Source: Owenia fusiformis (Eukaryota; Annelida; Polychaeta; Sabellida; Oweniidae). From it: DNA of 64,000 nucleotides. The notes under the pieces are model-generated. The model was not told the origin of the DNA. It ran no database searches and was given only the letters and a program-made list of their open reading frames with translations. Positions 18,074 to 49,874 of the stretch are shown in pieces (position 1 is the first letter of the stretch; each line of letters begins with the position of its first letter). The position numbers and the translations under genes were made by a program. Where the stretch lies: the NCBI GenBank assembly GCA_903813345.2, contig CAIIXF020000004.1:16417513-16481512 (forward strand), in the 5' to 3' direction.

Positions 18074-18325
18074 TTAATGTACTTTCAAATGTCCATTCAT
18101 TGGTTGATCTTGACCTTGACCTCCCGCTTGACCTTGTCCATTGTCTCCTTGTCCTTGTTCATGTGTGAAGAATGGCAAAAATAGCTTAGACACAGCAGTG
18201 TATATCTTCCCATGTATAAGAAACACAAATTGTTGTAAGAAGCCGTGTAGAAGACGGTAGTATGGGCCATAGAGTGGGTCAGATGGTCCAGGGCAGAGCA
18301 TGTTGTTCAGGTTCATTTCTAATGT
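18074..18325 (-). CDS. TMEM164: TMEM164 last exon, copy X (5X)
   Basis: This terminal exon encodes TLEMNLNNMLCPGPSDPLYG, then PYYR and HGKIYTAVSKLFLP, ending in a Gln/Gly-rich tail and NGHLKVH before the stop at 18074-18076. NLNNMLCP is exactly as in vertebrate TMEM164. The acceptor (TTCCAG before 18325) is in phase 0. Its counterpart 5Y ends NGHAKIH, so the C-terminal NGHxKxH was present before duplication. The tail GQGQDNGQGQ-like stretch is low complexity and absent from 5Y. Confidence 0.9.
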   Translation of the reverse strand, partial: TLEMNLNNMLCPGPSDPLYGPYYRLLHGFLQQFVFLIHGKIYTAVSKLFLPFFTHEQGQGDNGQGQAGGQGQDQPMNGHLKVH

Positions 18326-21300
18326 CTGGAACAATAGGGTAGAATTACAGTAAGACATGGCAACAACTGCTGACAGCTGTGAAAAAATGTATTGTTTAAC
18401 CACCTCATTGCTGATATTAAACAATATCAGGCAAAAATGGGACTGGAAAATGATTTTCTAAAAAAATATCAGAAATATCACTGGCTGTTATACAGTTAAC
18501 ACAACAATCATGTGATAAAATATATTATAATAGTCACTTAGTTCATTTCAAAACTGTAATAATCATAAAGTAAATAATACTTACAAAGGAAACTATCTGC
18601 AATGGTATAAAATGGTAAAGGTACAAGGCCCCCAAGGTCCACATGGTCCAAGACATATCTGTCAATGCCTCCACTTGAAATGGTCCTACAAGTAAATATC
18701 CATATTCTTTAAATATCTCAATAACAATCTTGAAAGATTAAGGATAGATGTAGCCACTGGATCCAAATATACAGGGCATGAGCATGAAAGTGCATCTAGT
18801 TGGGCTAGTCTTCTGAAACTTCTTGGAGTTGCTCCATGAATCCTAGTTTTAATGTGGTAATAAAGAACAATTCAAATATCATGCAGACAAAAAAGTTATG
18901 CAACATTATGTAGAGGTTAAAACTAAAAGGGGAGACCATATTTATTCAACACCCTGTAGATGAGGCAAATTTCAATGAGGCATCATTTTCAGTTTCAGTC
19001 TAAAATGACTCACCTAAATATTATGGTGAGGCAATAATGCCTTTCCTATCTTATAGCTTGCTATGCTCATAAAGACAAAACATGAAAATGTTAATATTTC
19101 AATTGTATCTTTTAGGAAGCCTGTTTGTAAGCATTTTTATCTTGAGTACAACTCTTTCCTGTTCACAGTAGTTGCATTTAATTCTGAATTATGGAATTTG
19201 AATATTTCAGGAAGTAAGCGTATGTAAGGCAAGAATGAAATATGAATAAATTCATCTTCAGGAAATAAAAATTTCAAGATTATATTACTTACTTTTAGTC
19301 ACAGTAATCATGTAAAATCTATAGTAAATGTGAATGTATTAAAGCATTTTTTAATTAATTAAATTTATTAGAGCATTTTTTAATTATGGATTTCGGATTT
19401 TCAGAAATTCTTAACTTAATAAAGTCTCCTGTTAATGCCCCAACCCCCTTGATTACTTAATTCAAAACAGCCAACCTTAGCCTGTTATTTACAGAAATTC
19501 TGAAATTAAAGGATATTCTGCTTAACATCTCTGTTGTAAAATATATCATGAGTTTCTTTAATTTGATCACAAAACACAATAAATTACAATATAGCACGAC
19601 AATCTTCTTGGAAATGAAGTACTCTTGGCAATTAAGCCTATTGTACGGATGAGAAAATATTTCCGAAATACGTGACTGATGACAACATTGTGTTATATTA
19701 CAACAGAATTGACATTTAGTTCAAGAGATATGGATATTAAAGATACCTTATAAATGTCTAACATGTCTAAACTAAGGCAAATAAATAAAGTACTTTGTCT
19801 TGAAGATTATTAGATGGCTGAAAAACATTTTCTCATTCAATATCTATAGAGTACTTAAGACTTTAATAATTACGTAGTTCTTGATTCCATGTTGGTTGTT
19901 ACAATGGCGTTGTTATGATATCAAATATTTATTATTGAATTATCTGCACACATGTTATTATGATTTTGTATTTCAACTTTAAACAGCTTGCTCTATTCCA
20001 AAACAAAACTTTAATAAAAAGATATAACAAGTACCATTAACAATTACTGGATATCAACATACTAACAAGTGGTACATTATCAATCATACAACTAAGTGGT
20101 TCACAGTGAATAGTACCACCAAGTGGAATACTAGCAATCATGCAGCAACTATATGGTATACTGTCAATAGTACCAAACACTAGTATACTATCAAAAGTAC
20201 CTCCAAATGGTATTCTATAAACAGTACCACCAAATAGTACACCTACAATTGACAAATGAACAGACTATCAGATAATTAATTATTAAGTGGGTTCTATTCT
20301 GACAAATATCACATATATAGACAATGATACAATTAGGAATTATTCAAATACACTTATAAATATCATAAGAACAATCTTAACATGAGACATTACAGTAAAA
20401 CCGGGAGTAAAACTATCATGTACCAGTTATGCATTGTATAACGTAACAGATAGGGAATTTTGTTATTTGTATTTTTATCAAATAATATTTCTCTGACCTC
20501 TTACAAGATACCCATTTCTATGAGAAAAATCATACATGCATTGGTTGGTACTGAGTAATAGTTTACACAAGTGAACCTGAATAATATAATTTTTCTGTTT
20601 AATTAAAAACTATTATATTGTTAAGGTTTAGCATTCAAATCATAAAAATCTGAATGAATAAAGGTGTCTCCTTAAATGTTCTTCTCACTTGTGCACCTTG
20701 AAAACTCTGATAAATTTTACTTTTTTAGAATTGTATCCTTTTAAAGGACAGGACATGTCAGTTACTCAAGTTGTAAGTGAAAATTCATTAAATTGTTTTA
20801 GATCCTGAAGTGAAGTATTAATGAAAGTATCAAATCTTAATGTAATCTTGAGACAAGGTAATAAATATGTACATGGTGTGTATGTCTGTAAAAATTCTAG
20901 GTGGTGTTTTAAAATAAATAAATTGATTTTTTACAATGTTTGACAGATACTGCATCAGATAAAACCTCATAACCTTTGTAAAAATCAAACTTTACTTTCT
21001 TACAAGGCAAATCTATCCTTACATCATACCTCATTTCCCAGTAGTCATTATTTCTTTTATGAAGATAATAGGGAGAGGGGTGGCTCAGAATATAAGAGAT
21101 CATTCTACTCAGCTCAGCCACCCTGTCAAATATACAGTAAAACCTTTGTTTAGGGAAAAGAAATGTTCTACTTGTAGACATGTGTTACATGAAAATGAAA
21201 ATCAATGAAACAATATTTGCTTCTTTTGAAAGCTTTCTTGTAGAAAGGTGTTCCCTTTAAACAGGTTTTACTGTTCATCAATATACTCATAGATTTTAAA

Positions 21301-24300
21301 TGTATTATGCTTAAAACTTTGGCGACAGCAACTTATCTTAGATTTCAAAAAAAGTTGCATAAGTACACTGTTATTCATACCAGGTCAAGAATATTACAGC
21401 TTACAGTGTATGCTTGATCAAATTTTATTACTTCTTCAAATTCATCTGCTTCTTTACACTTTCAACAGTTTTAGGGAATATGTGGTTCAAGCGTGGAATA
21501 ACATTATATTAAGCAGATATATGCGCAACTTGAACCATATCCAAAAAGGTTCTTGGAGAAAAAGGGAACAATCTAAATTCCTAGTAAATAGTGCATCTAT
21601 ATGTAGGCCGTATCAAATTTTGATGATGTATCATGAATCTTTTTATCAAAACTGATAAGCACCGAGGAAGAAAGAAAAAGCGAATGAGTTTATTCTTAGA
21701 AACTTTCAAAATACTAAATCCTGGGAACAGGAGAACTAGACCATGTCACATAATACATTTGTGATTTTGATCCAGCTGTTCCGTGCCTTTTCATTCATAT
21801 TTTTGTTTCATGGTGATAAATGATGTTGGTGAATTTAAAGCCCAAGCTTTGTGAATTATGAGAATTCTAAATTTAAGTTATAGATTGGTAATATTGGGTA
21901 CTGTATGTTTGGGCCAACACATTAGATCTTTGAGGAAGGGAGGTTAAACTTTAATTTCATATCACTGTATTTTTCTGAACCAGTTCGACCTAATATATCT
22001 GTTTGTTACAAAAGGCCTAAAATATAATATATAATATAAAGTTTGGAAATTAGCACATTCATACACAAGCTGAAAATATTGAATTTACCTATAATATTAG
22101 GTTTAAAATACTTTCTAAAATACTATTTCAAAAACATGACTTCCCAAAGATGTAATAGTTTTTAAGCCCTTGTTTGAAATATACATTACACCACACATAT
22201 GGAAGATATACATTTTAACAAACTTATAACAACAATTAATTATAATCATTACATAACTGACTGACAATGAATAGGTACATGCCACCATTGTATGGAATCA
22301 TTATAGGACACCATACTAGAATAGTACAAGTCACCGGTTTGCGACATTTCCTTTTTGAAGTGATATTTCATTACACTAAATCATAATATGACATCATTTA
22401 TCATTATGTAACTACATATCAATTACATGTCCATGAAAATTAAAGTTTATTTTACAATGCATCATAGGCATCATTTATCATCATATGCCATGTTATGACA
22501 ACATACTAATTTCACGTCTAACAGGTGTATGGAAAAGCATACTATATAAGGTCAAATGACATATTACACTTTATTGCATCTCAAACAACAATGCTAGTAG
22601 TTGAATCTATTGCATATTATATACATTTCAACCACAATGATTAACAGGTAATCAGTTACTGGGTTAATACCAGTAAATATTGGGCAACAATATAGATCTA
22701 AATTTAGTTCATTGGTAAGTTTAACACCTCTTCTTTCTTATAGACTGTGATATATAAAACAAATGAAAAAATGTGAGGAAAATTATCAAGTTTTGTTTTA
22801 TATCATGCAGGGTCAACTGTATTGTATTGCATTTTGTTTACCCCCATATTTTAGTGAGCAATTACCTCATTGGTATATTTCCATATTTTAAGCATTTTTC
22901 ACTCAAATACGGAGCCAGAAACCTCTCCTTCAAGGAGCCCTGTGTCCTTTTATATGCACCGATACACAGGTACATACACATCTAGAAGTTTCAAGATATT
23001 CACTTTTAAAAACAAAGACAACGCTTCACCAAATAACCATTTCTGAAGTCTCATGACAGACTTATATTTGTATGAACAAATCTCATTATGATGTCATGTC
23101 ACCAGTTGACCCTGCGCAAGATGTTCACAAGATGATACAGTACACTGGCAAATATTGAGACATGAAATTTCTTAAAATCCTGAAGATTTCTAATTCTCAA
23201 TGAATCTTGGCATGGCCATTTGTGGTATCAACTTCTTGGCCATTTTGTATGCTCTCCACTTGAGGAGGTAGGAAAATCTTGGCTATAGCTGTATATGTTT
23301 TCCCATGTATAGCTATGAGGACTCCCTGTAATGTCCCATGGTATATGCGATACCAAGGGCCATAAAATGGGTCAGATACAGCTGGGCAGATCATGCTGTT
23401 AATATTTACCCAGGAGACCTGAAAATATATTTCAAAATGATGTAATTATTACGAGATCTGGGAATATTTTGTTAAAATACAGGTATGTGGAAGTTTAACA
23501 AACAAAATATGATTCACTAAATCTTGAAGCTAGACATCTGGGTGGTTATTTCTGATTTCTTCACCATAAACAAATAAAAATAATTAATATTTCATGATTT
23601 TCCCTGAAAATTAAGACCACACAATAATGTGTGTAAGACTCATGGACTTACGTATGCTGCATACTGGATAGGGCACCAGTATATGAAATACAGAACTCCA
23701 CAGGTAAAGATCATCCAATTCATATCCTTTAAAGCCTCTGTCTTAAATGGTCCTGAAAAAATAAGGAAAACAAATCAACGAAATATTTCTAGTAATTTAT
23801 TGAGGAATAAAAAGGGTAAACTGATCACTTTCCCAAAATAGTATTAGATGTATCGTCCCTCCATTTTTTCTATTCATTTTTGGGATTATTATTTGAAAGC
23901 AGTATCTATTTTAAAGCACTTAGTTATAGGACTAGAAGACATATTTAGCTCTGGCACAAACTTGGGATGATTTTAACACCAATAGGCCATAGTCTTAAGG
24001 GAATATACCAGAATTTTACCTAAATGTAAAAGGTGAAAGATTAATTATTCTCTAAGCATAGAAGGCATATGTGAGTCTTATTTCAAAACCCTGTATGTAT
24101 TACCATCACTTATGACAGAGAGGGGATAAACAAAGGGGCTTCAATACACGCCCAGAACTTTATCTTACAGATATCCTTTTAGTTTCCTTAGTCTAGAAAT
24201 CACTGTTAACTTTAAAAATCAGGATACCCAGTAATAAAAGCACTCTGTTTAACATAAAATGTCAGTATCGAAATAAAGCACTATGTTTCACGTAGAAACC

Positions 24301-30300: not shown

Positions 30301-33300
30301 CAATAAAAATTGTATAATGGTGCGTATAAAGCTCAAAATGAAAACTCAGAACCATTGAACTATTTAAAATGTCAGGTATTGTTGGCTGTGATGAACAATG
30401 TCCAGCCTATCATGCCGCAACACCAGAAATATTAAAATGTTCCATGAAGGTTCAAGGAGGATTTGCAGATCCCATATATGGTATTTTTTAGATGACTGAA
30501 TATATTTTCATTATAAAATATTTAGAAATACATAATTTAGAGCTGTCACTAAGTTCAAGTTTAATTTTCCTAGATTGCCTTTTTACTCAACTTCATTGTT
30601 AGCATGTGAACCTTTTACACCTCCCTTGGTAAATATTGTTGGAACTCATGGGAGCAAATCCTCCTTTGCCTATATCTCTAGTTTCTAATAATGTAGTTCT
30701 AATTCTGTAACTCTAAATTCAGTTCACCCCATAATATCAAAAGTTCAGTATAATACCACTATAGTCATATAGCAATGCAACATATTAAGGTAGGCCTTGA
30801 TGGAGAAATTTGCAACTGCAGGCACATGTATTTTGAAGCAGCATGTAAAAATTCATGTTAATTAATTAGGACACTGTATAACTTGACTTTGCCTTAGATA
30901 TGTCAGAAATAATTTATGGCTTCGTCTAAAAGTGCTTGAATTATTTCCTTCAGGCCATTACATTAAGTGATTAATTAGACTTAAAGAGGAAACGTTGAAA
31001 AAATGTTGGCAAATGTCGGAGAGGTTATAGTGTGTTTTAAAGGTTGGATAGGAAATCAGTCTTATTCATATTGTGTCTGTATTTTCAGAGCCAAGGAAAC
31101 AATACATTACATGTTGTAATGTTAGCTATAGCCTTTCTGTTTGGACGATACAATACATTATAAGTTGTACTGTAGGCTATAGCCTGTATGTTTGGAAGAT
31201 ATACCCAGAAAACCCTCCTTAAAGATACAATACATTACAAGTTGTAAAGTTAGCTAAGCCTTCCTGTTTGGAAGATACAATACATTACATGTTGTACTAT
31301 AAGCTATAGCCTTTCTGTTTGGAGGATATACCCAGAAAACTCTGTTAAAAGATACAATTTATTACAAGTTGTACTGTTAGCTATAGCCTTCCTGTTTGGA
31401 AGATACAATACATTACAAGTTGTACTGTTAGCTATGGCCTTTCTGTTTGGAAGATACAATACATTACAAGTTGTACTGTTAGCTATGGCCTTTCTGTTTG
31501 GAAGATACAATACATTACAAGTTGTACTGTTAGCTATGGCCTTTCTGTTTGGAAGATACAATACATTACAAGTTGTACTGTTAACTATGGCCTTTCTGTT
31601 TGGAAGATACAATACATTACAAGTTGTACTGTTAGCTATGGCCTTTCTGTTTGGAAATACAATACATTACAAGTTGTACTGCTAGCTATGGCCTTTCTGT
31701 TTGGAAGATATACCCAGAAAACTCTGTTAAAAGATACAATACATTTCATGTTGTACTGTTAGCTATAGCCTTTCTGTTTGGAAGATACAATACATTACAT
31801 GTTGTACTTTAAGCTATAGCCTTCCTGTTTGGAAGATACAATACATTTCATGTTGTACTGTTAGCTATAGCCTTTCTGTTTGGAAGATATGCCCAGAAAA
31901 CTCTCTTAAAAGATACAATACATTACAGGTTATACTGTTAGCCATAGCCTTTCTGTTTGGAAGATATACCCAGAAATCCTCCTTTAACCTAAAAGTGTGT
32001 ATCCTTTATTATGTACAGGTACACAGATTCACAGGTACAGAAGCACAAACTGCAGCTACACAATTGAGGACTTAACTAAACCAAGCACCTTGAATAAATG
32101 TGAATACTGAGATGCATTGCAGATTTTTGGGTGAAGTGAGAATTGAACTGGCACCAGAGGAAACATGCTAAAGATCCAAACCGAGCTATCAAAATAGTCA
32201 CCACTCTTGGCCTACATTTTCTAAATAAATAAAAGAGCAAGAGGACAGATTTTATTTCATGAAACAGCCTAATTTATCAGTTAAATGGTTAAATTTGCGA
32301 ATGCCATTCCTTTTTTTGATTTCTAACTTCTGCAAATGAAATCTTCCATTCCTACCATATTTGACCCAATGTTAATGTAATAATGTAAGAGTGGTGGATT
32401 TATTGAAAATACTACTTCCAGCATTTTATCATATCCACCCTTCACTGCCACTTTAAGAGTTCTCTTAAGAAATGTGTTGAGCTTTTGATATAATTGGGGT
32501 GAGTTGAATTTTACTAGAAATAATGAGCTTGTTTATATAGAGTATTTACATCTACACTTGCAAGCTTACAAAAATAGTCCTAATACATAAAAATACATAT
32601 AAAATAATTAAAACCTAACATCGGTGTTCATTAAAAACATATTGAAAATAAAATAAATATTGAACAAAGTGTTTTGTCTAAATACAGATTGAGAAAAAAA
32701 TAAATAAGTCTATTCTGAAAAAAAGATTTCATCTACTTCGCCTTTTTATAAACTTGCAAATGTGTTTTTCGGAAATTGAAATGAGTAAAATTTTACTCAC
32801 ATTTGATTGGTTGGTAAATTTAGTGCTGTGTTGCATGCTGGGATACTGCTTCAGCAACTGGATATTTGCGCGTAAAAATGGCGGGAATTTTCTCGAAATC
32901 TATGTGAAATATAAGACTAATAATGAAAGTTATTCAGCAGATTATTCTCAAAACTTTATTTTATTTTTATTTTGCTAATAAATATAGAACTTTCATACAA
33001 AATAAATTCAATTATTTCCAAGCTATATTACATGAACTGTAAGCATACATAACTTAAAGGCAGAATCAGATCTACCGGGGTGACAAATTTCCAAGCAACA
33101 TGTACATTCGACATGTATGTATTTGTATGATGTATTTCTTATAATCTAAAATATAATATCTCCCAAATTATCCACAATATGTTATAAATTGATGAAGTTA
33201 TTCAAGATTCAAAGTGCAAAAATGGGGGGAGGGGAAAATGTTTAAATTCCCCGAAATAACATGGAAACCACAATTCATAGAAAAATTGACACAATATTGT

Positions 33301-36300
33301 AGAAATCTTTAGTTCTCTTCAAATAGACTTTGAGCTTTGAAAATCTTTAGAAAAAAGACTTTTTGATTTGTAACATTTTTTGTTTCAAGTTTACTTGCTA
33401 GATCTGATACTACCTTTAATACACATGCAACATTTTATTTTTAATATCTGTGAAATAGATTCTTTAGATCTGCCGTCCTCAAGAAATACATGACTGAATC
33501 TTAGTCACACTTGCACTTTTTGCCTAAGAAAACTGTTGCCATGGCAATCACTGTTGATGTCATACACAAGTAGAGTCATGTGCACAGCTCATTGGAAATT
33601 GCATCATTTCATTGTACTGGGGACGTAGCAATGATTTAAAATAGGTGAGGCAAATTTAAAAAATGAGGCAAAACTATAGCTTAAATAAGGCTGTTATGCT
33701 TCGGAAGAATAAATAATTTTAGATTTTCTGCAAAGAAATGTTAAAAATATTTTTCCGTAATATTTTGGTGAGGCAATGCCTCACCTGCCTCAGCCATGCT
33801 AATATGGTACATTGTAGATTTCTCATATGTAAACAATATATTTCTGGATAATGGACTGGTCGGGTGCAACAGCGTGACTGGTTAGAAAAATGAACAAAGT
33901 GTTTTCTTCATTTGAGACAATTCCTTGAACTGTGCATTAGAATTTCCCCTGACTGTGCATTAAGACTGAAATTGTGCATTAGAAAATCCCTTCCTGTGCA
34001 TTAGACATAAAACTTGGGCCATGCATTCAGCTAGTTAATATGTGAGGTGTATTATAATGATCAAGACCCCATTGTACAGAATAGATTTCTCCTTGCATAC
34101 AGGTTATGTTCCTCTTTCCATTAATATAAAGCCACAAGAAATAAAGATACTGCAAAGCAAACTAATTGATTGGCTTAATTAGTATAATCTATTTTAATTT
34201 GTAATTCATTATTAGTAATAAATAGAAGATTGGAAATATTTATTATATAAAGGAACTGGAACTAATTGAAACAAGTACCAGTTACTGGTAGCTCAAAATG
34301 AAACCAGCAAAACAACAGAAGACAATGCATTAACATGCAAAATGGCACCACCTGCCATTTGTTACAGATGCAGAACATGTGTGACATAACAAACTAGGCG
34401 TTGATATGACAAAATGTCACCACTGATAATTCATTGCAAATGTCACAACTTCTGAGCTTGTGCTATTTTGTTAAAGGCCCCATATAAAGTTTTAACCACT
34501 TTGGCTAAGTCCACCTAAATGGTATCATAATATTTTCAAACTTTACATAGGGCCTTTAAAGCTAGCTTCAAACGCTACTGGCAACTGGCATAAGTAACAA
34601 TTAGTTCAAATAACTAATACATCAAACATTATATAATACAATGATACAAAGCAATCGGCTTCACAAACAAACAAACAAACAATAAAAACAAACAAACATC
34701 TACAAACAAACAAATTAAATATTTTGATAACGAGATGCTTATGAAATTATAATATATCAGTTATATGTTACAATAATTCTACACATTGCATTCACTATAT
34801 CACAATGACATGTTTTCAGATACTATCAATAAATACATAATAATTATTTCATGAGATCAATACATCGGGTTTACAAAAAGAACTTACCCCCTATTCGCAT
34901 TAGGTAGAATGGGATGACGATAATCATGCCATGTTGAATCCAATATACTGCGGTTTCAAACGGCAACTAGAAATTACAACAATAAGCAATAGGTTTCATT
35001 TATTCATTTCCATGGTGACAAACAACTTATTAACTTAGACTATTACGAATTCTTTCAAGAGAACAATAAAATAAAATAATAATAAGACCGGTAAAGCACT
35101 TATAAAATTATGCCTTACAATAGGTAATTTTAGGAATGTAATATGTGCAGTATCTATATAATAGGTAATTTTAGTAACATAGTATCATGCCGTATCTACG
35201 GTATAACCTTATGAGTGTTTAATTTGGGTAATTTCAACTTTAAAATTACCTACTTTATAGGTTAATTTTACATGACACCGGTGGGTAAAGACTAAATATA
35301 AACAGTAAAACCCATCTAATGTGAATGCCTCTGGAACTGAAAGAAAGTGTTCACATTTCAAAGTTTTATAACCATGTATGTCAATGGGAGATAACATTTT
35401 TGGGACTGAGAAAAGTGTTTATATTGATGTGTTCAGATTAGAAACGTGTTTTGATATACAGGTTTAACTGTATCAATATTCTATTGGCCTCAAATATATA
35501 GAGATTCAAATGGTGCATCCACTACGGTACTCCTGGAAACTTTTTATACTACTGAAGTCGGCTTGTTTTGTGATTTTGAAATCTAGTTCTAATAATGAAT
35601 TTTTTAAATTTTGCAGATGTTTAATGTGTTAGAACTCCTGGAATTTTGCAGCTAATTTTATTTTTGTTAATTTTCATAAACTCAAAAATGTGTTTAGTAG
35701 ACTTAAGCACACAAGAACAGTTCTCTGACAAGTATTTTGGAACATGTTGTAGAAAAGGTCAAAGTGACATTTATGATATATTGTGTTCATCCAATATAAT
35801 TTATATCAATTTCATACAATGATAGTTTTTAGTTAAACCGATTTGATTAAATTCTTCACATATACAATCAAAAATACATTAGTGTCACCTAATTATGCTT
35901 TCTTTTTTATCTATTGCACGCAATGAGCTCATTTCATCAATCTCAATAACTACACCCTGGTTCCATTCTTTTCAAATCATGTATTCTACCCTTGCGTTGT
36001 TCGGACTATATTTGTGGATTACTGTATTTAGTGATTATGAGTTGTTAGCAGAAGCATGGTCTTTCAAGAACCTTTGGCAGAAGCAACTTGCAGATGTTAT
36101 TGTAACATACAGCAAAATCTGTCTGTGAATGCTACTTGGACTAACCAAAGTGTTTGTGTTGTGTTGGAAGGTGTTTACATTTCGAATTTTTTTAATGTGG
36201 AAGTCTATGGCAGCAAAATCATTTGAATTGAGAGGTGTTAGAGGGGTACATTAGGTTTTATAAGATTTTTTCATAGTAAGGCTCATTCATTAAACCTTTA

Positions 36301-39300
36301 GCATGCTGCCGGCATGGCTTTTAAAAACTTTTTCGCACCATTCTTCTGAACTTTCACTATTTCATGATTTATTCAGTGCCTTACGTGACTTCCTGTTGAC
36401 CTAGAAATAGCAATCTTTTGAAAAATATTTCCAAATTCAACAATTTAAACAGAGTTTTAGTCGTTTTTAGTGAAAAAATCGTACAAAATGGCAGCCAAAT
36501 ACGATCACAACGAAAATGTGGAGGAAATGGATTGTGATTTTGAGCTCTTTTAAAGGCTCTTGGAAGCCGATAATGGTCATCAAAAATAGAAACTAGAATA
36601 TTTTCTGAACTGAAAAGTTGAACATTCGATCGATATTAATTCACTTTTGGATTCTGACCAGACATTTTGCCTTTCACTTAAATTTCTCAAAAATCATAAT
36701 TTTACACCCCCTTGAAAAGAACAAAAAATAACTTTAATTAAACGACTGTTGACAACTGGACAAAGAAATCTTCTTTTTACTCACCAATCTTGTATTAACT
36801 ACTGGGAATATAAGGGCTAGAGTTGCTCCACTGAACATGTGCATATGCATCCTGAATAGAGCCATTGTAAGCTTGGTTGGAGGGGCGGCCAGGAGATATA
36901 TCTGAAAATACAAGATAGAGCCATTGTAAGCTTGGTTGGAGGGGCGGTCAGGAGATATATCTGAAAATACAAGATCGAGCCATTGTAAGCTTGGTTGGAG
37001 GGTTGGAGGGGCGGCCAGGAGATATATCTGAAAATACAAGATAGAGCCATTGTAAGCTTGGTTGGAGGGGCGGTCAGGAGATATATCTGAAAATACAAGA
37101 TAGAGCCATTGTAAGCTTGGTTGGAGGGGCGGTCAGGAGATATATCTGAAAATACAAGATAGAGCCATTGTAAAGTTGGTTGGAGGGGTGGCCAGGAGAT
37201 ATATCTGAAAATACAAGATAGAGCTATTGTAAGGTTGGTTGGAGGGGCGGCCAGGAGATATATCTGAAAATACAAGATAGAGCCATTGTAAGCTTGGTTG
37301 GAGGGGCGGTCAGGAGATATATCTGAAAATACAAGATAGAGCCATTGTAAAGTTGGTTGGAGGAGTGGCCAGGAGATATATCTGAAAATACAAGATAGAT
37401 ATTGTAAGCTTGGTTGGAGGGGCGGCCAGGAGATATATCTGAAAATACAAGATAGAGCCGTTGTAAGCTTGGATGGAGGGGCGGCCAGGAGATATATCTG
37501 AAAATACAAGATAGAGCTATTGTAAGCTTGGTTGGAGGGGCGGACAGGAGATATATCTGAAAATACAAGATAGAGATGGATATAAATATTATAAATATAC
37601 AAGTATCACTTTTTGTGCTGGGTAAAAAAGTGACCACATCAATGTATTTCATAATTTTGGCACTACAAGTGATGTTCTACCTTAGGCCAGGCATAAAAGT
37701 GATACCAATTTTTTCCCAAAAAAGTAACCAATCTGGGTATTTGTTCTTTTACGGGTGTAATATATAATCCTGTGTTAAGAGAAACCACCAATGAATATTT
37801 AGTACAGGGTATTATTTTATTTTGTTAACCAACCTGGATACAAGTGACAATGTGACATGGATTTAACAGCCAAATCAACCTCTTACTGGCCATCTTAAAC
37901 CCTAACTCTATACCAAACACCAAACAGTATAACACAAGGACTGCTTTTCTGCCCAGGGAGCTCTTCAACTTTTTACGAAAATCATGAGGTAGTGTCAATG
38001 ATTTGTAAGAGCACAGACATAGTGCAAATGAAATGATGATAAATACAGCAGATTCGGCAAGTTTTTGGTTAAATGGAATATAATTCCGACATTGTAATCC
38101 ACCGTTTCCTGGTAAGGTATAATCCACGCCACCGTACAACCAATCAAAAGTCTCCGTTTTATTCACTGCAGCCATTTTGTATCACAGATGAAAAATGATC
38201 AAATCCAGTTCTTAATTTGTTATTAACCAGTTCTTACTCATTCCATCTTAACCTGATGCTAAAATTTATGTTCTTTGTTTAAATCTCAATTCCCGATGAC
38301 TTCAGATCTCTTATACTACAAAACTTTTCACTTTTAGGATGGCTACATTTCTGTCTATCATAAGGCTAATCCTGTTCTCATTTAATTATTTCATAAACTA
38401 CTTATATCTGTCAGACGACAGCTACATATTAATTCATCTTGAACTTAATGAAATAACCCTCATGTTTTGCCTCGACACTACCATGCGGACAATGCATGCC
38501 TGTATGTTATTAACAAAATATATAATAAATAATACAGATGCTCCCATAATTTATTTATAATATCTATCTATCTTTCTACAATTCACCTCCTTGTGAAAAC
38601 CACCTGCACACTTGTATATTGAACAGTTAAATATTTGAAGAAATCTCATTAAAACTTTTAATAATTTCTATAATAAAATGCCCAACAAGGGCAAGATTAT
38701 ATATATATAAAGATTATTATTATATCAAGATTATTTCCAATCACACATTGTCTGTTACTTTTTCAATTTTTAGAATCTATGAAGGGTTTAATAAATGAAT
38801 TATTGACATGTTTGCAAGATTTCCATGATAAATGTATATAAAAATAGACTCAAAACAATCATTTACTAAATACACTCGCTAAACATATATCATGTATGAG
38901 GGTATTGTTCGCCTGTTATGTTTCTGATAATATTGTTTTTTCTCTATTGAGAAATAGTTTTCATAACAGGTCAGAGCAACATAACCATTATATAATATCA
39001 TACAACCCCAAAAATGTTGTTTATTCTACAGAAACGCAGTTCTATTGAGAGATATCACGGTTTCCCGATATTTGACCATATTTGGTCAAGATGATCTGTT
39101 TCGGGACATGGGATGGAAAGAATTGATATTGTGATGATATCTGACATAAAATCCTTTCCTAGAAATACATAAAAACATGTACAAATATGTACACTTCTCA
39201 GCAATAAAAAAGTGTTCATAGTGGATCCAAGATTTCAGGTTGATGGTAATGTTCATTTGCAAATTCCTACATCAATGCCCGCAAATCAAATGCATTATCA

Positions 39301-42300
39301 GTATGGTGTCCCAAAAGTACCATGTCCCGAGACAATTTTTACAGATCCATCCTGTATCATTTTTTGGACCATGAGACTTCATGTTACCTTTCCAATGGTA
39401 TGTTTTTGTTACTGCTTTAAAAGAAAGCAGCCTTAACCAATCAGGGGTCCATTTACAGAAATTACATGAAGTCAAGAATTCCTAAATCAGTTGTATCCAT
39501 GGATATAATGATATCGTAGTACAAGACAAATTACATGTAACTTATAGATAGGAATTTTAAACTTTGTGGAGGTTTCTGTTAATGACTCCCAGAATACTGA
39601 AAATATTGGTAGATTAAAATCTAGCTACCTTATCGAAATAGCATTCTGGTACTCATAGCATCTTTCTGTTTCACCTGAAACATGCTCTGATATTATGAGG
39701 CAAATTCTGTGATCTGAGCACATCAGATGGGAAGAGTTATAACTGTCAATAAGTGTGATTTATCATGATGTCGAAATAGAATTTTCTGAATTTTATGTTT
39801 TCATTAGTATCTGCCATTCATTTTACAATGCAACTCTCATAAAGGGCATGACAGCAACTTCTTGCGTCATTAAAGGCCCGGTCACACCGCCTAAACGTTG
39901 CTGGAGCGTTCCTTGAACGTTGAAAAAAATCATCAACGCTCGTAAACGTTCACCACCGTTTAACAAAAGTTGGCATCCGTTAAAGCAACGCTGTAAACGC
40001 TCGGCCAACGCGGATGTTTCTCGAGTGGCCATCCTAACGCTCCAAAAGTTTTGAGCTGCTCAAAATATTGCGAGCGTTGAAAAAGGGACAATTTTACGCC
40101 CTGGCAAAGTTTATCACCGCTCCACCAACGCCCAGTCAAAGTTTGGCACCGCTAGACGCAAGTTCGTGGACGCTTGAATCCGCTAGACCAACGCAGAAAT
40201 CTTAAACGCTGGACCACCGCTGCTTCGCCAGCGTTGCCCGGGTGGCGATTAAACGTTGCACAAATGTCGGTGGAGCGGTTGTTAGCGTTTTATCAGCGTA
40301 CATGGGGTTGTTGGAACGGTGTCGGACGTTGTCGCAGCATTCCATGGCGGCGATGAACTTTGCTTTGGCGTTGGTATAGAGGTGTCGGAGCGGGACCAGA
40401 ATTTGGCTATAAATACGTGGAGAAATGCACCACGAGCTCTTTTGGAATCGATCCGTTCAGCTCAGTAGTCAAACGCGATATGCTGCTAAACAATCGCTGC
40501 TGCTATTTATACCCCCGCCGAGGCAACGCCCTCATGCGCAGAACGCCGCTATACCAACGCTCGCATTACCGCTAAACAAACGCTAGCTACCGCTCGCAAC
40601 CGCTTAACAAACGCTAAGCCAACGCCCGTGTTTTTGTTTTTTTTCCCCATTTTGTGCGCGTTGACGAGCGTTGATGAATTTTTTCAACGTTCAAGGAACG
40701 GTCCAGCAACGTCCGGGCGGTGTGACCGGGCCTTTAGATCTCATCAAAACTGAAAAATAATGAGAGCCTAATATATAGTGAAACCTGTAAAGTGGCACAC
40801 CTCTAGAAGTGGAACACCTCTTGGTAGAACACTTCGAAATCCCAAGACTAACCAACTTAAATGTTAAATGAATCTCTATTTAAGTGGAATACCTTCCAAA
40901 TGAAAGATGTTTCACGGAGAGAGCTTTTACTGCACTAGACTCTAAAACTCAGGGTATTTTCTTGGAGTAGGTGCAATGAGATAAAAAATTATGCTTTTTT
41001 GTTGGGTAATGAAAGATTTTTTCAAGAGAGACAAATTATCTCACCATGTGAAATCTGTACTAAAAGCTAGTCTTGCTTCAATACTAGGGGGGGGGGGGTA
41101 CACAATCTAACTAGGAGCTACAGTAATGTGAGAATTAGCAATTCACTATTGGGAGGCATGAGAATATGATGTCCATTGTTAAACCCCTCTGCAGCAATGG
41201 AAAGCAGCATACAGATGAAGCAAATTAGTGGCTTGTAGAAAGCTAATTGGTTTTTCTTGATCATTGGGAATGTTTTATCAAAAACAGCAATTAACATAAA
41301 GCCAACTGAAATAATTTACATTGACATGTATGTACATGTATGTAGCTCTTAAGATCTTACAATTATCACAATCAAAAGTCAACATACTATTATGTATTTC
41401 ACAATCTGGGTACAGTGCATGTATGTTTTGGGCACTTTGACATCAGGAATAAGTTACCTTTAAATTACCCTTTCAATAGTTTAATTTCAGTAATTTTCAA
41501 ATTAGCTTCATCTACTGAAGTTGACTACTAATTGCTGCTAAACTAGAGACGCCGGGCACCAACAAAGGATATACATAGAGGTTATTTAATGGGAGGTTTT
41601 TGATAGGGTATATTTGAGGGAAATACAATATATCTACCCGGGGGACCATAGGGATATACAATAAAATACCATATTATATTATTTTTATCAATGTCTTATC
41701 TGTAAATATATGTCAAATGTTAAGTGATTTATTTGTGAGGTAAAATAACACATATGACCCAATATGAAGAACTCTTAAGTTAACTGAAGAACACAGAATG
41801 GTATTATTAGAGTTTGGAGTAGATAGCCCATATTCACCCATAGGGACATTACAATATACTCATAATAATAAATGTCTTGCTACCAGGACAGTTTGATAGA
41901 AATAACCAAATATAACTAAGAGTTCACCCAGTCTTGCTCAAGGTCATGCTCTCCCCCCCCCCCCTTCAAATATCCTTTATAATCTGGAGAAGAGTAGATA
42001 GGGAGGGTTAGAGGGTCCAGAGACTTGGTGCAAGACTCATGGCAATAGATGTGCCCCCTTTGTCTTTATCCTCGCAAATGACAGGTAAGATGGGCTAAAG
42101 TATTCACATGCAGTTCTCCAAAGGATGTTTTCTCAAGTGGGTGCAAAATTCTCATGTTCACAATTCAAACCAAAATTGGTCAAAATATGCCTATTTTTAC
42201 ATGATTTTTCTCATTATAAGTGGGTGCAAGTGGATTTTCAGGTGGGTGGAAGCCTGTTTTTAAAAATTCAGTTGGGTGCTAAGCCCACTTGCTTTAATGC

Positions 42301-48300: not shown

Positions 48301-49874
48301 ATCAACAAAAGTATGCGTACCATATTTCAGCAGATATCGAAAAAAATCACGAAAATATTTTTTGATCGATAAAATTATGGAATATAAACTTGGAAGTGTT
48401 TTCTCTGAGGTCTGTGTGGAATATATTGATTATTTCAGGTTTTGCTGTGGATTCGATTTTAAATGCATCTTCATTTGCTTAACTACGAATTCTATTTGTA
48501 ATGTTTTGACTTCCCTGCTTCATAAAAACAAAATTATCAACATTTGCTCAACTCGAAAAATTCACTTCCAGTCTATCGTTATAAAGATGAGCTGAAAGTT
48601 GTTGTGAACACCTTTCAATACTCAAGTCTAAATATGGCTTTTCAAGGTTCAATAGACGACTTTGAATGGATCTGCATGCATAGTTCGAACATAGAATCAT
48701 CAGAGGTTTAAAACCATGAAATCGAAAAAAGATTTTTTTAACCATTTTGTCAGCTGTATGTTACAATGTGCCTTAAGGAAATGGGAATGACTTAAACAGC
48801 AACACAAATCTATAACGCTGTTAGTGCATATACTGTATGCAGTTGCCATGTGATTTTACTAAACCTACCGAAAAAATCAACTGGTCCATATCAAAAGTGG
48901 CCTGGCAAATGACCAGTGAACTGGCCCTTAGCTCAAGCCCAGGTTGTACCATGAAGGCAGTGATTTGATGGAAGGATTTATGCTAGAGCCTGCCAAAATC
49001 AAGAAACAAGAAATGTATTCTCACTACTCAGTTTCATTTATTTGATTTGGACCACTTGTTTCAATGATGAACCTTAAGGTAGGTCCAAGTATCACAATCT
49101 TGAAGAGTGCATAATACTCTTGATAATGTTTGAAAGTTTATTAGCAATCTATTCTCCCCTAGACTGGATTATATATACCCAAGTTTCCTACTTTGTTTTT
49201 CAACGGGGGTATATAAGTGAAGCAATTAATCTAAGACTACATATTATATATCACCGAGCTCGTAACTACAACTGCCTTACACCTGACATTCTCGTTTTCA
49301 AGAGGGTATGCAAATGGTCACAAACCACTTTTAAAGTAGGTAAATTGCAGACTTGCTAAAATGCCGCGGAGATCACTCTCTAACAAATCTCTATTCTGTT
49401 CATGTACTGCACGTTATATCTTTATTACTTATTTACACATAATCTATCACTCATTCTTGATACACAAATAAACAAGCTTAGAAGAAATAAACTACATAAA
49501 CAAAAATGATAAAAGCTTACCTGAACCATTGTGACTAGATGACAGGGATTGAGGATCCAAATCATTTGACGCGTGGCGAACTTGAACCCTAGTTCTATTC
49601 CATATGTCAAACACATTATTACTAACAATAGTCTTTTACTCCCTGCATTGAATCTTTCTGTGTATGGCACTTTGTCTGGTACTTGTAGCCGTGGGTATGC
49701 CCAGGCCATTTCAAGAATAGAAATCAAAATAAATACAGTCGTCTCAATTAGTTTTTGTTTTGGGCTAATGAAGTCCCTACACTCTGGCCCTCCTGTACCA
49801 GCTATCGAGTGATCAACTCCATCGTACGCCCATCCAAAATATCCAGTATCGTTTGGAGGATTTACAATAGCCAT
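18074..49874 (-). CDS. TMEM164: TMEM164-family locus with duplicated first and last exons
   Basis: TMEM164 is a multipass membrane protein reported in mammals to act as an acyltransferase that builds arachidonoyl ether phospholipids, using a conserved Cys in an NPCH motif. Here the minus strand carries first exons 1X (49521-49874) and 1Y (37834-38175). Next come a single exon 2 (36785-36901) and exon 3 (34888-34966), then pairs 4Y+5Y (23652-23752, 23197-23418) and 4X+5X (18585-18685, 18074-18325). Phases are 0, 0, 1, 0 throughout, so any first exon can join exons 2-3 and any last pair. 1X-2-3-4X-5X gives 300 residues and 1Y-2-3-4Y-5Y gives 286, against about 297 in human. This may be one gene with alternative promoters and 3' ends, or a nested duplicate whose second exons 2-3 were lost or missed. 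The choice cannot be made without transcripts. Confidence 0.88.
18585..18685 (-). CDS. TMEM164: TMEM164 exon 4, copy X (4X)
   Basis: A 101 bp exon encodes GPFQVEALTDMSWTMWTLGA then LYLYHFIPLQIVSF, a membrane segment aligning with the vertebrate stretch that ends FFYHFSVLQILGL. It has a TAG acceptor before 18685 and a GTAAGT donor after 18585. Entry is in phase 1 and exit in phase 0, identical in length and phase to 4Y. Confidence 0.88.
18686..23196. other. Stretch between exons 5Y and 4X, no further exon seen
   Basis: AT-rich sequence. Apart from the repeat at 20029-20250 and the dispersed GGTGAGGCAA fragment near 18955-19045, nothing was recognised. If 5Y is a terminal exon, its 3' UTR should occupy the right-hand part; no clear AATAAA (TTTATT on the plus strand) was found close to 23197. 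Confidence 0.4.
20029..20250. repeat. Degenerate repeat of 33-36 bp with AGTACCACCAAGTGG words
   Basis: Six or so units contain AGTACCACCAAGTGGAATAC or variants alternating with ATCAATC/GTCAATA. The 72-codon minus-strand frame over it (FGGT..SIP repeated) reflects the repeat. It lies in the stretch between 5Y and 4X. Confidence 0.5.
23197..23418 (-). CDS. TMEM164: TMEM164 last exon, copy Y (5Y)
   Basis: A terminal exon encodes VSWVNINSMICPAVSDPFYG then PWYR and HGKTYTAIAKIFLP, ending NGHAKIH before the stop at 23197-23199. SDPFYGPWYR matches vertebrate TMEM164 exactly, while NINSMICP is slightly diverged. Copy X shows the reverse pattern, so neither copy is simply the ancestral one. The acceptor TTTTCAG precedes 23418 in phase 0. 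The tail (PPQVESIQNGQEVDTT) differs from that of 5X. Confidence 0.9.
   Translation of the reverse strand, partial: VSWVNINSMICPAVSDPFYGPWYRIYHGTLQGVLIAIHGKTYTAIAKIFLPPQVESIQNGQEVDTTNGHAKIH
23652..23752 (-). CDS. TMEM164: TMEM164 exon 4, copy Y (4Y)
   Basis: A 101 bp exon encodes GPFKTEALKDMNWMIFTCGV then LYFIYWCPIQYAAY, a membrane segment. The acceptor (TTTTTCAG before 23752) and donor (GTAAGT after 23652) give phase 1 in and phase 0 out. By eye 16-17 of about 34 residues match 4X, so the duplication is old and both copies look constrained. Confidence 0.88.
24230..25260. repeat. 41-bp minisatellite, about 25 units
   Basis: Units of the form AGTATAGAAAGCACTATGTT then TAACATAGAAACCAATATGTC repeat with a 41 bp period (for example, the same word at 24351 and 24392). 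Block-wise copies near 24500-24760 and 24720-24900 are nearly identical, showing a higher-order duplication. Degenerate units continue to about 25450. It lies in the intron between exons 3 and 4Y. Confidence 0.85.
26166..27744. mobile_element. Insertion carrying tandem 135-150 bp AAAATGGCCGCC units
   Basis: The block starts with GCGAATCCCATCGAAC and ends with GTTCGATGGGATAAT, an inverted pair that marks its limits. From about 26395 to 27400 there are seven to eight units of 135-150 bp, each with TTTTTCAAAATGGCCGCC, an AAAGTGTCAT..GACAGTGTGCCATG core and TATGAACAAAATCG. Before the right end is a GGACGGACGGACAGACGGAC tract (27683-27710) followed by CCCTATATCCCTCCGAAC, a motif seen in many invertebrate repeats. 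No coding capacity was found. The superfamily is not assigned. Confidence 0.65.
28094..28737. mobile_element. 644 bp inverted-repeat element with 8-bp target duplication
   Basis: The termini GGTAAAGATTAAAAGGTGG and (reverse complement of the right end) GGTAGAGATTAAAAGGTGG extend as inverted repeats for about 65 bp, with GGATTGGATCGAGTGGATTG and ATTCATGTAAAAGGTGG inside. AATATAAT occurs immediately outside both ends (28086-28093 and 28738-28745). An 8 bp duplication fits hAT- or P-type transposition. Inside is a 95-codon open frame (28145-28432) with no recognised family. It could be residual or captured coding sequence. Confidence 0.8.
31085..31980. repeat. 51-bp minisatellite with composite units
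   Basis: GGAAGATACAATACATTACA then AGTTGTACTGTTAGCTATGG and CCTTTCTGTTT repeat at 51 bp (31386-31690, five to six near-identical units), flanked by longer composite units that add ATACCCAGAAAACTCTGTTA. The unit is a multiple of three and stop-free, so it reads as a 17-residue repeat on both strands (102 codons minus, 83 codons plus). There is no start context, splice signal or homology to suggest a protein. Confidence 0.85.
33625..33800. repeat. Dispersed GGTGAGGCAAA repeat, copy 2
   Basis: AAAATAGGTGAGGCAAATTT through TTTTGGTGAGGCAATGCCTC, bounded by GGGGACGTAGCAATG and CAGCCATGCTAATATG. Same family as 14405-14600. Confidence 0.5.
34888..34966 (-). CDS. TMEM164: TMEM164 exon 3 (single copy)
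   Basis: A 79 bp exon encodes LPFETAVYWIQHGMIIVIPF then YLMRIGG, matching the vertebrate [20 protein letters not shown] region. The acceptor TTTCTAG precedes 34966 and the donor GTAAGT follows 34888. It enters in phase 0 and leaves in phase 1, so its last base pairs with the GA that opens both 4X and 4Y to give Gly. No second copy was found. Confidence 0.9.
34967..36784. other. TMEM164 intron 2, with a dispersed AAACC..TGTGAA repeat
   Basis: 35300-35475 runs from ACAGTAAAACCCATCTAATG to ATATACAGGTTTAACTGTAT and looks like one of the short inverted-end repeats that also occur at 40775-40935, 45890-45965 and 61964-62369. Nothing else was recognised in this intron. Confidence 0.4.
36785..36901 (-). 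CDS. TMEM164: TMEM164 exon 2, acceptor-proximal copy
   Basis: A 117 bp exon of 39 codons: IYLLAAPPTKLTMALFRMHM then [19 protein letters not shown]. It matches the vertebrate segment ending [20 protein letters not shown]. The acceptor TGTATTTTCAG precedes 36901 and the donor GTGAGT follows 36785. It enters and leaves in phase 0. The first 45 or so bases of this exon, with the acceptor, are the unit of the adjoining 59 bp tandem array, so the true start used in vivo could be any of 12 acceptors. 36901 is chosen because it gives the family length. Confidence 0.88.
36854..37568 (-). repeat. 59-bp minisatellite carrying the exon 2 splice acceptor
   Basis: Twelve copies of TCTTGTATTTTCAG followed by ATATATCTCCTGGCCGCCCC then TCCAACCAAGCTTACAATGG place possible exon starts at 36901, 36960, 37027, 37086, 37145, 37204, 37263, 37322, 37381, 37438, 37497 and 37556. 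Spacing is 59 bp except 67 (an extra GGTTGGAG) and 57. The unit has no stop in any frame on the minus strand, which produces a 261-codon open frame (36817-37602) that is not a separate protein. The array is the duplicated intron 1/exon 2 junction of TMEM164. Confidence 0.92.
37834..38175 (-). CDS. TMEM164: TMEM164 first exon, copy Y (1Y)
   Basis: It encodes 114 residues from ATG at 38175: MAAVNKTETFDWLYGGVDYT, then GNGGLQCRNYIPFNQKLAES, a hydrophobic segment, LVFGIELGFKMASKRLIWLL, and NPCHIVTCIQ. DWLYGGVD and GNGG are as in vertebrate TMEM164, and the catalytic-type Cys of NPCH is residue 107. The donor GTTGGT follows 37834, a weaker match than the GTAAGC of 1X. Upstream sequence would have to supply its own promoter. 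Confidence 0.9.
39871..40736. mobile_element. 866 bp CpG-rich inverted-repeat element
   Basis: The ends AAGGCCCGGTCACACCGCC are perfect inverted repeats and continue as a near-perfect 70 bp match (GTTCCTTGAACGTTGAAAAA on both). TA flanks each side (39871-39872 and 40735-40736). The interior is GC- and CpG-rich with many AACGCT/AGCGTT words in both orientations. There is no transposase frame; frames of 60-71 codons are incidental. It is a non-autonomous element, and similar GGCCCGGTCACACCG ends occur in other invertebrate genomes. Confidence 0.85.
43016..43139. repeat. Near-perfect hairpin of about 55 bp arms
   Basis: CAATTATTGACCTCTCCAGA through TCCCGAGACTGTAAACC is mirrored by GGTTTACAGTCGAGGGATAT through GGAGAGGTCTATAATTG. 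The loop is only a few bases. Just downstream (43138-43510) is a second palindrome (AGTCTCTAAGAGACT at 43314-43328), so both may belong to one repeat ending near GAGGTACTAAC. Confidence 0.75.
44191..44387. mobile_element. 197 bp MITE with TCAGGCCCGTAGTCAG ends
   Basis: The left end TCAGGCCCGTAGTCAG and the reverse-complemented right end TCAGGCCCATAACCAG form inverted repeats. The interior has G-rich runs. It is not coding. Confidence 0.65.
47025..47480. repeat. Local duplication of about 235-240 bp, about two copies plus a fragment
   Basis: TTGACTCTT..AGTAGATATTGAATCTGGTAAACCAGAATGG (47047) is repeated as TTGACTCTTTTGAGTAAATA..CTGATAAACCAGAATGG (47320). Each copy is followed by TTTTAGTCTTGCACAA or TTTTGGTCTTGCACAA and then by GTAGGAGTGGTACACAAG-like text. 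A shorter third part (TCTGGTAACCAGAA, 47191) lies between. The two minus-strand frames here share the pattern because of the duplication. Confidence 0.55.
49521..49874 (-). CDS. TMEM164: TMEM164 first exon, copy X (1X)
   Basis: It encodes 118 residues from ATG at 49874: MAIVNPPNDTGYFGWAYDGV, then GTGGPECRDFISPKQKL, a membrane segment ETTVFILISILEMAWAY, and LTYGIELGFKFATRQMIW followed by ILNPCHLVTMVQ. GGPEC, GFKFAT and LNPCHLVTM are the closest matches in the window to vertebrate TMEM164. The NPCH Cys is residue 111. The strong donor GTAAGC follows 49521 in phase 0. The nearest exon 2 on the minus strand is the single copy at 36785-36901, reached by skipping 1Y. It is head-to-head with CLNS1A. 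Confidence 0.92.

Follow-up and report, generated by a model that had tools for sequence, protein, structure and literature searches.

Does a minisatellite that has multiplied a splice acceptor tune the splicing of the gene in which it lies, or is it removed with the intron as a harmless by-product? The question is raised by the TMEM164 locus of the annelid Owenia fusiformis, contained in the 64,000-nucleotide stretch of DNA analysed here (the window). An earlier note on this DNA had proposed that the intron 1/exon 2 junction of the gene has expanded into an array of tandem 3′ splice sites and that copy number would act on splice choice and on protein length.

A minisatellite built from the intron 1/exon 2 junction

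TRF places a tandem array where one had been claimed, at 36856-37575 (period 59, 12.1 copies, 92% matches, score 1221), in a window with a GC content of 33.5%. On the minus strand the array contains 12 exact occurrences of TGTATTTTCAG, in agreement with the proposed number of tandem 3′ splice sites, and the first exon bases after them are 37556, 37497, 37438, 37381, 37322, 37263, 37204, 37145, 37086, 37027, 36960 and 36901 (minus strand). Consecutive acceptors are spaced 59 nt apart, save for one spacing of 57 nt and one of 67 nt, and all 12 AGs are intact. Since this 11-mer occurs 2680 times in the 498 Mb of the genome (556 times for the mirror pattern), its 12 occurrences in 720 bp are far from chance. 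The 59-bp unit consists of the last 13 nt of the intron and the first 46 nt of TMEM164 exon 2, and the last array copy continues into exon 2. The TRF result, the acceptor positions and the match to the TMEM164 profile PF14808 described below together uphold the view that the junction has been expanded into an array of acceptors.

36856..37575, minus strand: junction minisatellite ('mirage', see below), 12.1 copies of 59 bp, from TRF and acceptor positions

When exon 2 together with one unit was searched against the genome, no match was found outside the TMEM164 locus, and the same search recovered no second haplotype from the assembly.

The gene that carries the array

The TMEM164 gene model comprises the following exons.

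37834..38175, minus strand: first coding exon 1A, phase 0 end at CAG/GTTGGT
49521..49874, minus strand: alternative first coding exon 1B, phase 0 end at CAG/GTAAGC, 44% identical to 1A
36785..36901, minus strand: exon 2 with its inferred authentic acceptor, from tblastn, the PF14808 match and the open frame
34888..34966, minus strand: exon 3 (LPFETAVYWIQHGMIIVIPFYLMRIG), found by motif search
23652..23752, minus strand: exon 4A, from open-frame joins
23197..23418, minus strand: last exon 5A, from open-frame joins
18585..18685, minus strand: alternative exon 4B, from open-frame joins
18074..18325, minus strand: alternative last exon 5B, from open-frame joins

Joined exons 1A, 2, 4A and 5A, with exon 3 left out, match PF14808 with 60.2 bits against a cut-off of 25 (E 2.6e-16), and the alignment crosses the join at 36901 with 113 residues on 112 profile positions. 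Exons 1, 4 and 5 are present in two copies, and exons 2 and 3 were found once. Both candidate first exons stop in phase 0 at ...Q/GT, and each of the four exon combinations gives one open frame of 286 to 300 residues. Judged from these joins, TMEM164 appears to be a single gene whose forms begin and end differently and have exons 2 and 3 in common, and the array would therefore sit at an acceptor needed by every form. The exon arrangement (18074-49874) would permit four protein forms, and the donor of exon 1A (GTTGGT) is weaker-looking than that of 1B (GTAAGC).

Apart from exon 2 itself and its partial repeats, a tblastn search of the window for a second exon 2 that might serve 1B returned nothing better than weak matches with E of at least 0.1. 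In the genome, where eight candidates were scored, only exons 1A, 1B and 2 fell below E 0.05, with five weak matches besides. Because a second exon 2 was not found, 1A and 1B are treated here as alternative first exons of one gene. A Pfam search for exon 3, which covered 23701-36801 in three minus-strand frames and 37700-49600 in one, gave no TMEM164 match; a motif search over the minus strand recovered the exon. A whole-genome family search for TMEM164 with exon-by-exon scoring likewise returned nothing, though the gene is present; this procedure is too weak, and its absence results carry little weight. Scans of the window with Rfam (gathering thresholds) and for tRNAs were empty.

Splice signals within the units

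Ahead of all 11 downstream acceptors lies a CTTAC or TTTAC (yTnAy), with its A at −26, or at −24 after the shortened unit. CTTAC conforms to the animal branchpoint consensus and is a putative branchpoint. In the last copy the sequence that contains this branchpoint-like site is exon. The first acceptor instead has TTTAT at −27 and −36, in the true intron. The units thus look, from their motifs, like near-complete 3′ splice sites. In 2 of the 11 cases (37497 and 37204) the branchpoint-like site is followed by an extra AG, 17 nt ahead of the acceptor, so not every copy of the array is an ideal acceptor.

The longest invariant run in the unit covers 27 of 59 columns (counted circularly) and extends from the acceptor core through exon base 12. 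Column shuffling gives P 0.009 for such a run, in a single test on one array that was selected once the alignment had been inspected. This invariant core could mean that the sites have been kept for a reason, against pure drift.

Reading frames through the upstream acceptors

Entry at 36901 yields IYLLAAPPTKLTMALFRMH. Frames through the upstream acceptors were computed with exon 1A, and 1B has equal phase. The offsets of 126, 303, 480 and 537 nt upstream of 36901 that the earlier note had assigned to 37027, 37204, 37381 and 37438 are correct on recomputation, and these 4 of the 11 upstream acceptors are in frame. They had been expected to add 42, 101, 160 or 179 residues, respectively. The first of these extensions stands, since 37027 is open through exon 2, as had been stated, and is the sole upstream acceptor of which this is true; the other three fail, since entry at 37204, 37381 or 37438 is in frame yet meets a stop inside exon 2.

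36902..37027, minus strand: only upstream extension open in frame, +126 nt or 42 residues, from frame computation

The remaining seven acceptors do shift the frame, and every one of them also reaches a stop in exon 2, with the result that a premature stop follows 10 of the 11 upstream acceptors. The unit had further been described as stop-free in all three frames. This holds for the consensus unit, but not for 6 of the 11 upstream units, in which CTGACC or AATAGC variants create TGA or TAG in one frame. The earlier frame argument was thus mostly wrong. Compared with the real exon, the upstream copies carry 9 nonsynonymous, 1 synonymous and 2 frameshifting indel changes (each distinct change counted), and all possible single changes of the 15 exon-2 codons in the unit divide into 96 nonsynonymous and 39 synonymous. 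The array copies look free of coding constraint and are not kept as coding sequence.

Comparison with known systems

Tandem duplications of this kind have a name. The 'mirages' of amphioxus are minisatellite-like tandem duplications of intron-exon boundaries (PMC3087553), with cases described in Adh3 and the globins BflGb6 and BflGb9 (PMC3087553) and in Adh, troponin C and PGBD5 (PMC3902484). In the BflGb6 mirage the intron end and the start of exon 2 are repeated, with units of 150-160 bp that number 6 in one haplotype and 3 in another, and the Adh3 data together with globin RT-PCR suggest regular splicing at amphioxus mirages (PMC3087553). As far as the accessible text of these papers goes, the TMEM164 array is alike in being a minisatellite-like duplication of an intron-exon boundary in which many repeats carry splice signals, and across the arrays of either genome acceptor as well as donor boundaries are affected. 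It differs from BflGb6 in its shorter units (59 bp) and their greater number (12, each with an intact acceptor), and from these mirages in general in its host, an annelid rather than a cephalochordate. The genome itself points away from amphioxus, with apparently 12 chromosomes and with muscle myosin exons whose best matches are scallop entries (357.9 bits, against about 342 for vertebrate myosin-6/7 and 303 for the insect entry 7kog); searches for GFP and hemerythrin gave no match and are uninformative. The TMEM164 array has tandem units of minisatellite length, a unit that spans the boundary with the real exon at the edge, and a protein-coding gene as its site. It is probably a member of this known class, a striking one but probably harmless.

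Other systems offer partial parallels, to the extent that the available portions of the reports describe them. The minisatellite of human IFI6 (6-16) supplies multiple splice donor sites whose use in mRNA has been reported (Turri et al., 1995). Like the TMEM164 array, it presents a single transcript with a choice of several equivalent splice sites; in IFI6 these are donors used in mRNA, whereas the TMEM164 sites are predicted acceptors. In duplicated human genes, variable internal tandem repeats have been found on exon-intron boundaries by comparison of paralogues, with transcript support; they too are of minisatellite length and may alter splicing, although the accessible text describes no array of complete acceptors (PMC2812944). 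Finally, intron gain by tandem duplication of AG/GT proto-splice sites (mentioned in PMC3087553; see also PMC4974935) shares with the present case the multiplication of splice signals by tandem duplication and differs in that at TMEM164 an existing intron has been lengthened and no new intron is seen. Intronic minisatellites are the subject of an earthworm paper and a C. elegans paper, as far as their accessible text goes. A partial search of the literature found no acceptor minisatellite array outside amphioxus.

Further junction arrays in the same genome

The genome was scanned for three TTTTCAG at spacings of 37-67, which gave 1600 matches against 310 for the mirror pattern, and for three CAGGTAAG at spacings of 38-68, which gave 411 against 64; both counts are of matches, not of arrays. 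Twelve further arrays were fetched, a non-random set: 5 were picked by eye among the first 100 of the 1600 acceptor-scan matches, and the 7 with the donor pattern represent every distinct locus among the first 100 of the 411 donor-scan matches. Four of the 12 lie on junctions of exons above the Pfam cut-off, and 3 more plausibly lie on junctions. The four are as follows (L numbers denote the fetched loci, and coordinates refer to positions within each fetched piece).

L010, 1892-2508, minus strand: array of 43-bp units with 14 acceptors, preceding a Sushi exon that only just exceeds the cut-off (21.0 bits, cut-off 20.7; E 4.7e-4)
L011, 1813-3190: array of 40-bp units, about 34 in number, ahead of an exon for a SMUG1-like uracil-DNA glycosylase (PF03167, E 1.2e-5 for two joined exons)
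L031, 1222-1540, minus strand: array of 52-bp units (99% alike) with six donors, following an exon for a CTDNEP1-like (NIF) phosphatase (PF03031, E 2.7e-33 for three joined exons)
L034, 1435-2801: long array, its 30/60-bp units containing many donors, that follows an exon for an XPNPEP3-like (M24) peptidase (PF00557, E 3.1e-7) and runs up to the edge of the fetched piece

The Pfam families are the search results, and by sequence resemblance we take the three named relatives to be SMUG1, CTDNEP1 and XPNPEP3. In L010 all 14 AGs are intact, and one further copy of the exon start, without an AG, lies at the outer edge. In L011 (84% matches), the AG is kept in 17 of the 33 parsed units and lost in 16, which suggests that spare splice sites decay with age. 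In the CTDNEP1-like gene, AAGTGTT was read by eye on both the exon and the intron side of the unit.

The plausible junction arrays without Pfam support are L009, L032 (best match below the cut-off) and L035 (no match). At L033 an exon resembling phenylalanyl-tRNA synthetase (PF01409, E 3.2e-4) has the array downstream of it, without being clearly repeated there, and no recognised exon was found at the arrays of L012, L013, L036 and L037. An enrichment of mirages at junctions was considered and dropped, because TTTTCAG is itself common at acceptors, so that arrays at junctions need not mean enrichment.

Some of these loci are unusual in other respects. At L009, 2767-3111, there are seven 49-bp units that each close with a GT donor; TTTTCAG precedes 6 of the 7, and the intervening 26 nt resemble a tiny exon with both splice sites. 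The same piece holds 78-bp repeats (3975-5131, minus strand; 14.9 copies) in an open frame of 600 residues; this minisatellite is coding, and its unit encodes 26 residues. L012 (1495-4940) consists of a 49-bp unit in 70 copies, many of which contain TTTTCAG, and has no recognised exon at the edge. The acceptor-scan matches listed also include many members of an apparent dispersed repeat family, as well as other arrays.

Origin of the array and choice between explanations

The repeated segment has a short direct repeat at both of its ends.

37570..37575, minus strand: CTCTAT direct repeat, intron side, from comparison of unit boundaries
36856..36861, minus strand: CTCTAT direct repeat, exon side, from comparison of unit boundaries

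CTCTAT is the longest word common to the two 30-nt boundary stretches, and a unit bounded in this way suggests an origin by tandem duplication. The 59-bp junction segment was probably first duplicated between the two CTCTAT repeats, and slippage or unequal exchange would then have amplified it to 12 copies. Each unit brings with it a pyrimidine tract and an AG, and the exonic CTTAC/TTTAC about 26 nt ahead of the next AG is a presumptive branchpoint. In this manner the array itself supplies 11 of the 12 acceptors with a branchpoint-like site, while the most upstream one retains those of the intron. The most exon-proximal acceptor, 36901, would be the working site, with its entry giving an uninterrupted TMEM164 protein; the upstream acceptors would be little used, or used and then lost to premature stops, and the array would behave mostly as intron. 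Given near-identical acceptors, exclusive use of 36901 is not guaranteed.

Arrays with a period between 20 and 300 and three or more copies occupy 4082 bp, or 6.38%, of the window, and minisatellites this dense would be expected to land on junctions. The expected number of array overlaps over the 12 TMEM164 junctions is 0.77, or 0.63 leaving out the TMEM164 array. Because 0.77 overlaps are expected by chance, one junction array, if harmless, is ordinary for such DNA, and because dense minisatellites can land on junctions, no special function is needed. Further minisatellites lie in TMEM164 intron 3 (24275-31976), with periods of 41, 23, about 135 and 51 bp.

From the sequence we consider it likely, though well short of certain, that the array is a by-product minisatellite of the mirage kind, removed with the intron, and that 36901 is the working acceptor. 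A splice-tuning repeat, as envisaged in the earlier note, would have the acceptors compete and copy number set the choice, with upstream use leading to premature stops and decay and with a 42-residue variant arising from 37027. The shared pyrimidines, AG and branchpoint-like site of all 12 acceptors, the 27-column invariant core spanning the acceptor and the open frame from 37027 are consistent with this, and precedents of a kind exist in the human IFI6 minisatellite, with several splice donors reported in real use, and in the human tandem repeats at exon-intron boundaries for which alternative transcripts are described (PMC2812944). Nevertheless we do not favour it and regard it as unlikely, since amphioxus mirages are reported to leave regular splicing intact (PMC3087553), 10 of the 11 upstream choices are unproductive, and in L011, a more diverged array, roughly every second AG has been lost (17 of 33 kept). 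A broader proposal would make splice-junction minisatellites a recurrent genome-wide class in a second animal lineage, at acceptors and donors, with TMEM164 copy number tuning a twelve-acceptor competition, repeat length setting the productive share of the mRNA, and the arrays feeding intron growth and gain; as a whole we judge it decidedly improbable.

We give very little credence to an assembly error in copy number, by which the array would not have 12 units or would be a false expansion of one junction. One amphioxus mirage was indeed misassembled in a draft genome (PMC3087553), but the TMEM164 units are told apart by substitutions and two indels, as clean copies would not be, and comparable arrays are present at other junctions of the genome. 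Scarcely credible, finally, is a main transcript in which the whole array is exonic and the protein carries a repeat tract. The stop-free consensus unit would allow it, and the most upstream acceptor, nearest the 5′ splice site and with TTTAT sites of its own, could serve as its entry; however, entry at that acceptor, 37556, runs into a stop that lies 442 nt short of the exon 2 end, the Pfam match through the 36901 join (113 residues on 112 positions) leaves no room for an insert, and the changes in the copies are unconstrained. The reading of the array as a by-product removed with the intron is thus the one that we retain.

Implications

What is new here is that mirage-type arrays appear to recur in a second, apparently unrelated genome. 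In the accessible literature, mirages have so far been described from a few amphioxus genes; two quick partial scans of the Owenia genome have given five Pfam-supported junction arrays, TMEM164 included, and three plausible ones. This suggests that any genome in which minisatellites form often may give rise to mirages, and that a gene can cope with a dozen near-equivalent splice sites. The arrays constitute a natural series of near-identical competing acceptors and donors for testing spliceosome choice, and they offer a present-day view of a proposed route of intron gain. They also carry a warning for annotation, in that junction arrays could give false long exons.

Elsewhere in the window, at about 39743-40879, similar translated ends occur on opposite strands (GPVTPPKRCWSVP and GPVTPPGRCWTVP), which suggests an inverted-repeat mobile element.
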